From the NCBI GenBank assembly GCA_014695325.1, contig JACJNZ010000039.1, positions 434,001 through 498,000 on the forward strand: a stretch of DNA of 64,000 nt, in the 5' to 3' direction. This stretch comes from Cyanobacteria bacterium FACHB-502. Lineage in GTDB: Bacteria > Cyanobacteriota > Cyanobacteriia > Elainellales > Elainellaceae. Below are positions 42,118 through 44,851 of the stretch, in pieces. A model generated the notes under the pieces. That model did no database searches, had not been told where the DNA came from, and saw only the letters and a program-made list of their open reading frames with translations. The position numbers and the translations under genes are program-made. How positions within the stretch are numbered: the first letter of the stretch is position 1; each line of letters begins with the position of its first letter.

Positions 42118-42891
42118 ATGCGTCTAGAAAATAAAGTCGCTCTAATTACCGGGGCAGCCAGCGGCATTGGTCGCGAATCTGCCTTACTCTTTGCCAAAGA
42201 AGGTGCAAAAGTCGTTGTTTCAGATGTTAATGAAACGGCTGGACAGGAGACGGTAGAGAAGATTCGATCGAATAACGGGGAAGCGATTTTTGTAAAAGCC
42301 GATGTGTCTCAATCTGCCGATGCCAAAGCGATGATCGAAGCGGCTGAAAATACATACGGTCAGCTCAACGTCTTGTTTAACAATGCTGGAATTTTTCACG
42401 CAGCCGATAACTCAGTTCTGGATACCGAAGAAGATATCTGGGATTTGACAATGAATATTAACTTGAAAGGCGTGTTTCTCGGCTGCAAATATGGCGTTCC
42501 AGCACTGCTGCGATCGGGCGGCGGCTCAATTATCAATATGGCTTCGTTTGTGGCAGTGATGGGTGCGGCAACGCCTCAAATCGCCTATACAGCCAGCAAG
42601 GGCGGCGTTCTGGCAATGACCCGCGAAATCGCGATCGAGTTTGCCCGTCAGAAGATTCGCGCCAATGCTCTCTGCCCCGGTCCTGTCCAGACACCGCTCC
42701 TGGAAGAACTCTTATCTGATCCGGCACGGAAGCAGCGGCGCATGGTTCACATCCCCCCTGGTAGACTCGCGCAGGCAACCGATATCGCGCAGGCGGCTCT
42801 GTTTCTAGCAAGCGATGACGCTGCCTATGTTAACGGCACAACCTTCCTGGTGGATGGTGGCATTACCTCGGCTTACGTCACCCCCGAATAG
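42118..42891 (+). CDS. Short-chain dehydrogenase/reductase (classical SDR)
   Basis: A 257-residue classical SDR oxidoreductase. The cofactor motif is TGAASGIG (11-18), then NNAG (about 88-91), a Ser in MASFVAVMG, the catalytic YTASKGG, and the PG motif ALCPGPVQTPL. The Asp in VVVSDVN at the end of strand 2 favours NAD(H). The final VNGTTFLVDGGITSAY is standard. Substrate unknown. It follows the aldehyde dehydrogenase on the same strand by about 100 nt and converges on the rhodopsin gene. Confidence 0.93.
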   Translation: MRLENKVALITGAASGIGRESALLFAKEGAKVVVSDVNETAGQETVEKIRSNNGEAIFVKADVSQSADAKAMIEAAENTYGQLNVLFNNAGIFHAADNSVLDTEEDIWDLTMNINLKGVFLGCKYGVPALLRSGGGSIINMASFVAVMGAATPQIAYTASKGGVLAMTREIAIEFARQKIRANALCPGPVQTPLLEELLSDPARKQRRMVHIPPGRLAQATDIAQAALFLASDDAAYVNGTTFLVDGGITSAYVTPE

Positions 42892-42983: not shown

Positions 42984-43790
42984 TTAAAAGAGATAGGGCG
43001 ATCGTCTGCGTGGACTCGATCGTTGAGGCTTCCTGCCGAAATTGAAAAAAGAAAGGCGAAAGGCATCTCGGACGGATTCGCGTGGCGTTTCTATCCCTTC
43101 AGCATCATAGGTTTTCAGTCGGCGGAGACCGTTTAGATCCAGAACACTAAATCCGACTTTCGAGAAGATGGGCAGCAAGCAAAAGAGAAACGTATCGATC
43201 GTTTGATTAAATACTCCCCAGCCGGACGGACCTAAGATCCAGACGGTCGGATAGCTGATCCACAGCACGGTAAAGTAAGCGACAAGCTTGTCATAGTGCC
43301 TGGCAAGTTCTCTGGTCTGGAGCTGAGTTTTTGCCCGCAGCGGATTCCAGATGCCCCACAGCACAACCAGAAACGCGACCACCCCGCAGATATACCAGAG
43401 GTATCTGACCCAATCGCGCTCTGACAAATCTGCAATTAGCCCGGTCGCAATCACGATTACTTGCGTACTCATCAAAAAGCCAATCAGCGTCCAGTCTTTC
43501 TTTTTCAAATCGTGCATTGCCGTCCAGGACAGGGAGAGCAACAGCAAAGGCGTAGTCACAATCCAGTCGAGATAGCGGGCATAGTGGGTAATTTGTCCTG
43601 CCACTTCGAGCTTGCCCTGCCCGATCGCCATTGCCATATACGCCAACCCTGACCAGATCGGGATGAAGATAGCAACCAGATATTCGTACTGCGGCACACC
43701 CTTGGGATTGCGGCTCAGTATCCAGAAATACAGCGCACCGATCGCCATCACCGCAACGTAGCTCCAGTGCATCACCGTTTGCCAATCCAT
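42984..43790 (-). CDS. Sensory rhodopsin, Anabaena (ASR/xenorhodopsin) type
   Basis: A seven-helix retinal protein of 268 residues. Helix C reads ARYLDWIVTTPLLLLSLSW: Arg72, Asp75 (Schiff-base counter-ion), Thr79 and Ser86 where proton pumps have the donor Asp. Helix G reads FLFCLLPIFSKVGFSVLDL, with retinal Lys211 and Pro207 at the place of the bacteriorhodopsin Asp212. Asp75, Ser86 and the helix-G Pro are the marks of Anabaena sensory rhodopsin, which is photochromic and signals through a soluble transducer. A 50-residue basic cytoplasmic tail follows (ending RSSPRRRSPYLF). AGGAG precedes the ATG. No transducer gene is adjacent: the next gene downstream is the convergent SDR. Confidence 0.95.
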   Translation of the reverse strand: MDWQTVMHWSYVAVMAIGALYFWILSRNPKGVPQYEYLVAIFIPIWSGLAYMAMAIGQGKLEVAGQITHYARYLDWIVTTPLLLLSLSWTAMHDLKKKDWTLIGFLMSTQVIVIATGLIADLSERDWVRYLWYICGVVAFLVVLWGIWNPLRAKTQLQTRELARHYDKLVAYFTVLWISYPTVWILGPSGWGVFNQTIDTFLFCLLPIFSKVGFSVLDLNGLRRLKTYDAEGIETPRESVRDAFRLSFFNFGRKPQRSSPRRRSPYLF

Positions 43791-43848: not shown

Positions 43849-44020
43849 AATTTAATTGAGTTTGATTGCGTTATGGGTCGGGCTCGATATCCGGTTAAAG
43901 ATTCGATCGCAAAACAGGGCATAAGCGTGAGCCTGCTTAAAATGCGCGATCGCCGTTCGTGCAGTCCAGATCTTTTGATTTCGGCTATCATGCCTGATGA
44001 TGCGATCGGGCTACTACCTT

Positions 44021-44052
44021 CTAGAGGAAGAATTTGCTAGAGGAAGAATTTG
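44021..44052 (+). repeat. Perfect 16-bp tandem duplication
   Basis: CTAGAGGAAGAATTTG occurs twice in a row (44021-44036, 44037-44052), about 60 nt upstream of the hydrolase ATG. Each copy contains an AGAGGA ribosome-binding-like sequence. Confidence 0.95.
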
Positions 44053-44110
44053 TGATGTAACGCTGTCGCTCACGCAACTTCAAAAACGTTCTTCTAAACT
44101 GTCAAGTAAT

Positions 44111-44851
44111 ATGTCTGTCCCTCTGATTGGAATCACTGCCTATAGCCGCAACGAAGCTGGAGAAGTTTCCCTTCCCGGAGCTTATCTAGATGCCGTATTG
44201 CTTGCAGGTGGAACGCCGTTGATTCTGCCACCTCAGCCGATTACCGAAGCGCAGGTCGATCGCATTCTAGATTCGATCGATGGCTTGATTTTTGCTGGTG
44301 GCGGCGATATCAATCCGTCGATGTATGGTGGCGAAAATCATCCGACGCTGTATCTGATGGATCAAGAGCGAGATGAGTTTGAGCTGGCGTTAGCCCGTGC
44401 TGTGCTGAAGCGAAATTTACCCACGCTGGGTATTTGTCGAGGAATGCAGATTTTGAGCGTGGCAAGCGGGGCAGCTCTGATTCCCCATGTACCTGATGTT
44501 TATGGAGAGTCGATCGCCCACAGGCTAGATCATCCTCGTCGCCCGATTCATCATCCAGTCATGCTTGTCCCTGATAGCCAGATCGCTCAAATGATGGCCA
44601 ATTCGGAAGTCACCGTTATGTCATGGCATCATCAGGCAGTGCGGCAGGTTCCTCCCGGTTGGCGATCGGCGGCATCCGCATCCGATGGACTGGTGGAAGC
44701 GATCGAGCGAATCGACCAACCCTGGCAAATTGGGGTGCAGTGGCATCCCGAACTGTCTCCCGAAGATCCTGCTCATCAGCGCATTTTTCAGGCGTTTGTG
44801 CAGGCAGCAGCAGATTCAAAGCAAGCAGTAGCAGATTCAAAGCGGGGTTAA
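44111..44851 (+). CDS. Class I glutamine amidotransferase-like gamma-glutamyl hydrolase (peptidase C26, PuuD-like)
   Basis: This family cleaves gamma-glutamyl bonds, for example in gamma-glutamyl-GABA. The protein (246 residues) begins MSVPLIGITAYSRNE and has GGTPLILPP, IDGLIFAGGGDINPSMYGGE, the nucleophile elbow LGICRGMQILSVASG with the catalytic Cys, SWHHQAVRQVPPGW, and the His-Glu pair in GVQWHPELSPED. The frame opens further up at 43997, but ATG 44111 gives the canonical N-terminus. The C-terminus AADSKQAVADSKRG is encoded by a 21-bp duplication. With the ALDH it could suggest putrescine/GABA breakdown; other puu genes are absent here. Confidence 0.9.
   Translation: MSVPLIGITAYSRNEAGEVSLPGAYLDAVLLAGGTPLILPPQPITEAQVDRILDSIDGLIFAGGGDINPSMYGGENHPTLYLMDQERDEFELALARAVLKRNLPTLGICRGMQILSVASGAALIPHVPDVYGESIAHRLDHPRRPIHHPVMLVPDSQIAQMMANSEVTVMSWHHQAVRQVPPGWRSAASASDGLVEAIERIDQPWQIGVQWHPELSPEDPAHQRIFQAFVQAAADSKQAVADSKRG
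44804..44845 (+). repeat. 21-bp tandem duplication at a gene's 3' end
   Basis: Two 21-bp units, each containing AGCAGATTCAAAGC, encode the duplicated AADSKQ/AVADSKR tail of the hydrolase. Confidence 0.85.

Follow-up and report, generated by a model that had tools for sequence, protein, structure and literature searches.

Anabaena sensory rhodopsin (ASR) serves as the model of a photochromic sensor, and accounts of its mechanism usually center on the transducer ASRT. The protein is reviewed in PMC3267196, and work on ASR as a gene regulator (Irieda 2012) is referenced in PMC4005646. De Souza 2009 (PMC2739507) reports ASR-ASRT linkage only in Nostoc and proposes sugar binding for ASRT, and Ugalde et al. 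2011 (PMC3198991) describe ASRT as missing from other xenorhodopsin genomes. The absence of ASRT alongside such rhodopsins has thus been in print since 2011. ASR and the inward pumps BcXeR and PoXeR share the xenorhodopsin clade (PMC7541481), which accounts for 15 of 56 cyanobacterial rhodopsins according to the same source and for 35 of 102 according to PMC11528372. Almost all cyanobacterial genomes examined in PMC7541481 are stated to carry diox1, a carotenoid oxygenase gene and thus a source of retinal. Here, we compare an ASR-type rhodopsin gene of Cyanobacteria bacterium FACHB-502 and its surroundings with these systems.

An ASR-type rhodopsin with a basic tail

The window, i.e. the whole stretch of 64,000 nucleotides analyzed, encodes an ASR-clade microbial rhodopsin of 268 residues and seven helices at positions 42984 to 43790. 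The preliminary description had given these coordinates exactly but without a strand; the ORF lies on the minus strand (43790 to 42984) and the plus strand of the same interval holds stops. Asp75, Ser86, Pro207 and Lys211, which had been named as ASR-like residues, were all recovered in a residue check of the 268-residue translation, and Asp218 is present too. In total, the window rhodopsin shares Glu36, Asp75, Thr79, Ser86, Pro207, Lys211 and Asp218 with ASR. The type-1 rhodopsin fold with the retinal lysine (Lys211) in helix G was recognized via a PF01036 match (E 3.3e-65) and via structural comparison with ASR. Using phmmer against the PDB, the best solved relative was 1xio, Anabaena sensory rhodopsin (E 5.5e-123), with 79.4% identity to the crystallized protein over 223 residues, in good agreement with the ASR-type identity proposed earlier. 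An AlphaFold2 model built on 44 of our own aligned sequences reached a mean pLDDT of 89.1. Foldseek with the predicted core again ranked 1xio highest (E 1.1e-21; rmsd 1.3; TM-score 0.98, normalized by target length), followed among other proteins by the inward pump BcXeR (7ZMY) with 46% identity. NCBIfam contained no model for either of the two ASRs of the genome, and a promoter scan near the rhodopsin gene yielded 0 promoter-like sites where shuffles averaged 1.3.

In 13 close orthologue pairs, core dN/dS ranged from 0.02 to 0.13; the 3 pairs that include the window gene were saturated at synonymous sites. Because the predicted fold matches ASR and the core dN/dS of orthologue pairs is this low, the window ORF is not a chance ORF. 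ASR-clade genes are patchily distributed, and broken copies occur in G012, G465, G509 and G547, as would be expected of a functionless gene that had been acquired as cargo or was in decay. Such a status is very improbable for the window gene, however, given its intact ORF, the retention of all functional residues and the strong purifying selection that its orthologues show in the core.

The basic tail, previously put at 50 residues, is real and comprises 52 residues from Leu217 with 12 K/R and 6 D/E. Helix G is predicted to extend to approximately residue 230, leaving about 38 loose residues (231 to 268, mean pLDDT 48-63 per block). Together with the stop codon, this low-confidence, Arg-rich segment occupies positions 42984 to 43100 on the minus strand. 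A long Arg-rich C-terminus is a named ASR feature in PMC5118547. Tail comparison across 55 complete ASR-clade proteins gave 45 long and 10 short tails. A net charge of at least +3 in the last 22 residues was found for all 9 long tails whose genomes also carry ASRT, for 34 of 36 long tails from genomes lacking it and for 4 of 10 short tails. The basic tail is a known ASR feature and occurs both with and without ASRT. Mean identity of the window rhodopsin to the others was 73% in the core and 27% in the tail (the latter against other long tails), and tail dN/dS was 0.08-0.52 in the 13 close pairs. The tail had been suggested to signal via DNA or protein binding; such rapid divergence speaks against sequence-specific recognition, and the fast change together with the tail dN/dS is better explained by a role of charge than by one of specific sequence.

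To place the gene among its relatives, a tree of the 55 complete ASR-clade proteins was built with the tails cut off. Clade I contained 26 rows including the window protein (98/98), clade II 17 rows (100/97) and the short-tail clade III 7 rows (100/99), with five rows elsewhere. When ASR was added, clade I grew to 27 rows holding both the window gene and ASR (SH-aLRT 96), i.e. the two cluster even in the absence of the tails. Glu36, Asp75, Pro207 and Lys211 were found in 55/55 aligned proteins and Asp218 in 54/55. The combination of the Asp75 counterion with a proline replacing the second counterion (Asp212 of BR) thus holds for the window rhodopsin and throughout the clade. Residue 86 was Ser in 18, Ala in 35 and Thr in 2 proteins, and Ser86 is not a family constant. 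One of the 55 aligned proteins (L148:2799-3521, G270) naturally has Glu in place of ASR Asp217, a substitution which in the laboratory turns ASR into an inward proton transporter.

Two rhodopsin genes accompany the window gene in the genome (three in total): a paralogue on contig 51 (237 residues, 75% identity) which falls in the short-tail clade III, and a gene on contig 29 (30% identity). For the latter (L003:1477-2199), the nearest protein was Synechocystis halorhodopsin (7zou, E 4.7e-86), and the helix-C motif, as judged by eye, reads T-S-T. Its neighbors resemble urease accessory genes.

ASRT in cyanobacterial genomes and remnants of ASR

In agreement with the preliminary description, no transducer gene adjoins the window rhodopsin. 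The convergent downstream neighbor is, as described there, an SDR-family dehydrogenase (42118 to 42891, plus strand, 92 bp from the rhodopsin stop), and a divergent Peptidase C26/GATase-like gene lies 206 bp upstream (43997 to 44851, plus strand). Past the SDR gene follow an aldehyde dehydrogenase and a hybrid kinase, while the opposite side holds MFS and ABC genes, with the MFS gene 1.7 kb past the start of the divergent gene. SDR and aldehyde dehydrogenase were considered as conserved partners and rejected, as SDR-cluster genes occurred in 6 of 57 ASR neighborhoods at scattered positions. The observation of an ASR-type rhodopsin without an adjacent transducer is thus confirmed.

It had been suggested that the transducer may be encoded elsewhere. 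A PF07100 (ASRT) search of the genome (6.6 Mb, 99.99% complete) returned no match at E<=0.001, and the same search found the family in the Thermotoga maritima genome used as positive control. Within the order, the ASR clade was present in 13 of 36 genomes and ASRT in 0 of 36. An assembly gap is unlikely as the cause of the missing ASRT because PF07100 is absent from all 36 genomes, and both an ASRT elsewhere in the genome and its loss in an assembly gap were rejected. An ASR-ASRT signaling pair, with PF07100 co-encoded or at least present, was accordingly found neither here nor in the order. The partner may be unrelated to PF07100, or may be a very divergent ASRT relative missed by this family model.

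We defined the ASR clade as matches of at least 52% identity and surveyed a class sample of 388 genomes and the 217 genomes of the Nostocaceae (family f32), with some genomes in both sets. The class sample contained the ASR clade in 39 genomes, ASRT in 15 and both in 7. None of these seven has the genes linked; in G059 they lie 2.6 Mb apart on one contig and in the other six on separate contigs. In case of the Nostocaceae, 23 genomes carried the ASR clade (broken copies in G465, G466, G509 and G547 included), 24 carried ASRT and 8 carried both (G426, G459, G465, G466, G545, G547, G558 and G562). ASR-clade genomes without ASRT therefore number 32 of 39 in the class sample and 15 of 23 in the Nostocaceae. 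Set against Nostoc, the missing transducer is real but not unusual, the ASRT-less state being the commoner one. The window gene is an ordinary member of a known family in this state, and the suggestion that it is special fails. The four proteins most like crystallized ASR (G579, 91%; G469, G467 and G468, 89%) belong to genomes without an ASRT match. Since ASR-clade rhodopsins usually occur without ASRT, many of them must act by another route.

ASRT is not irrelevant to ASR, as co-occurrence exceeded expectation in Fisher tests uncorrected for relatedness: ASRT was found in 7 of 39 genomes with the ASR clade vs 8 of 349 without it in the class sample (p 2e-4), and in 8 of 23 vs 16 of 194 in the Nostocaceae (p 1e-3). 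ASRT-bearing genomes were scattered on the tree, requiring 8 changes where shuffles required 10.2 (a value this low arose in 20 of 500 shuffles). Probing 57 ASR neighborhoods with an ASRT protein revealed an adjacent ASRT in four (G459, G558, G562, and G465 with a truncated ASR). Together with the co-occurrence, this adjacency indicates that in some lineages ASR and ASRT are truly linked. In G426 and G545 (L169 and L174), ASRT lies 10-12 kb from ASR on the same contig and is 58-59% identical to the operon type.

Starting from the transducer side, 42 ASRT loci with flanks of about 1.5 kb showed an intact ASR adjoining in G459, G558 and G562, a truncated ASR in G465, and an ASR start of 23-24 residues beside ASRT in G135 and G429. 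Using DNA and tail-peptide searches, ASR tail remnants were found immediately before the start of full-length ASRT genes in five genomes (G135, G429, G402, G572 and G580), none of which gave an ASR match in the Nostocaceae genome search. The relics are located at L085:1266-1489, L036:1304-1471, L086:1328-1468, L088:1370-1475 and L090:1889-1989, and the same ASR tails had no match in 40 control regions. In G429, a single open frame joins the first 23 ASR codons to the tail, whereas in G135 the frames differ and in G580 the tail is frame-broken. Such remnants beside ASRT in ASR-less Nostocaceae are new here and imply that the pair once existed and that ASR was repeatedly lost while ASRT stayed. 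Selection for the tail peptide in ASR-less genomes was considered and rejected, since frame breaks interrupt the relic in L036 and L088 (in L085 it is still one open frame); passive remnants are for this reason the better account. The broken ASR gene of G509 is followed by weak ASRT-like fragments (L173:5883-6067, E about 0.01), and here both genes are possibly decaying together.

Recurrent neighbors of ASR-clade genes

Of 68 known ASR-clade loci, 57 with flanks were used for ORF clustering; the 11 left out (G012, G052, G140, G102, G293, G270 C57 and C61, G317, G274, G466 and G547) were mostly broken or at contig ends. Sixteen neighbor families were compared with 40 random control regions from the same contigs. 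Counted over 40 neighborhoods and 40 controls, the following families were more frequent near ASR than in controls, although the p values in this section are a guide only since families were chosen for recurrence beside ASR and related genomes and loci were counted as independent: P-type ATPase (9 vs 0), CAP-domain lipoprotein (9 vs 0), YflT stress protein (8 vs 0), AI-2E permease (7 vs 0), TrkH (6 vs 0), a 125-residue membrane protein (9 vs 2) and glycogen debranching enzyme (7 vs 1). Enrichment was absent for MscS (4 vs 2), DUF389 (2 vs 0) and others. In 10 of 57 neighborhoods, a CAP-domain lipoprotein gene (L166:5898-6443 and relatives) lies downstream of ASR in the same orientation, at 57-106 bp in seven of them.

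The recurrence of P-type cation ATPase, AI-2E permease and TrkH genes would suit a xenorhodopsin-type role as an inward proton pump or leak driven by light, which would alter cytoplasmic pH or membrane potential and need no protein transducer. Both BcXeR and PoXeR, the latter 51% identical to ASR (PMC5118547), pump inward, and the ASR mutant D217E transports inward (PMC5118547). The window protein, however, keeps Asp218 and Ser86 like wild-type ASR, which moves no ions according to PMC5118547, and its own neighbors are not transporters apart from the MFS gene at a distance. We consider inward pumping a possible but doubtful function of the window protein, although sequence does not decide between sensing and weak inward H+ transport.

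A further set of neighbors surrounds the short-tailed paralogue on contig 51 (L135:5084-5794). This island (L135:1591-8319) contains a YflT protein, a P-type ATPase, the ASR gene, the 125-residue membrane protein, a response regulator and a kinase, and is complete in five clade-III loci from three families (G000, the genome studied here, and G016, G055, G223 and G358). At stricter identity, 12 of 57 ASR neighborhoods covering all three main clades contain at least two of the genes for the 125-residue protein, the regulator and the kinase, and 7 contain all three. The conserved short-tailed ASR island and the module recurring near ASR are new here; a literature search of open-licence papers found no paper on either the island or the ASR relics described above. 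Best NCBIfam models, all below cut-off, were RppA (241.7 of 250 bits), RppB (330.3 of 400) and a PMR1-type Ca ATPase (697.1 of 798.3). In Synechocystis, RppA controls carotenoid and chlorophyll genes (PMC13421787).

These neighbors raise the alternative that ASR-clade rhodopsins couple to an RppA/RppB-like regulator and kinase together with the small membrane protein. Besides the five complete islands, the module frequency argues for such coupling, with 2 of 40 controls (p 0.038, uncorrected) containing the module, both hits lying on the same contig as an ASR at 16.0 and 15.5 kb from it; PMC3198991 also notes that the Cyanothece PCC 7424 gene has a two-component system in its vicinity. Against it, none of the island or module neighbors is found beside the window gene, the families were picked after their recurrence was seen, the loci are related, and at a loose threshold regulators and kinases are not enriched (10 of 40 vs 7 of 40 each). 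Further, the RppA and RppB matches remain below cut-off, and the island was not seen at two of the seven short-tail clade members in the DNA examined (L136, and L148 on a 4.5-kb contig). Two-component coupling of the window rhodopsin is hence unlikely. We regard as equally speculative a broader scheme, in which ASRT pairing would be local and repeatedly dissolved, and the wider output of the ASR clade would be a pigment- or ion-related module (RppA/RppB-like proteins, small membrane protein and Ca-type P-ATPase) that the window copy joins in trans.

Putative output and comparison with known systems

Based on our sequence analysis, the window gene probably encodes an ordinary photochromic ASR orthologue within clade I of the cyanobacterial xenorhodopsins, with an ASRT-independent output (probability about 0.6). 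Arguing against this reading, sensing is known in the family from ASR alone, and a relative at 46% identity (BcXeR) is an inward proton pump. By analogy with ASR, light would switch the Lys211-bound retinal between all-trans and 13-cis. With Pro207 replacing the second counterion, the Schiff-base proton would shift toward the cytoplasmic Glu36/Asp218 pair, which may in turn alter the cytoplasmic face and the tail. The residues of this proposed proton path are present in the window protein and nearly invariant in the clade. As the genome holds no PF07100 protein, we infer that the output does not use ASRT; the photochromic switch would instead act on another cytoplasmic or membrane partner, and the Arg-rich tail would probably provide electrostatic contact and not sequence-specific recognition. 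Many close ASR orthologues, the window protein included, belong to genomes lacking ASRT, and elsewhere ASRT outlives ASR; the strains and neighbor genes listed here allow the output of the receptor to be tested.

Compared with ASR of Nostoc PCC 7120 (1xio), the window protein is alike in sequence (79% identity), key residues, predicted fold and long Arg-rich tail, whereas its genome lacks ASRT, its gene has other neighbors and its tail sequence has diverged. With the xenorhodopsin inward pumps BcXeR (7ZMY) and PoXeR it shares the proline at position 207, Asp75 and Asp218; PoXeR differs in having no Arg-rich tail and a DTL motif (PMC5118547) where the window protein has D-T-S. The paralogue of the same genome has the same key residues and is 75% identical, but it has lost the tail and its gene belongs to the conserved island that also holds the P-type ATPase and the RppA/RppB-like pair.
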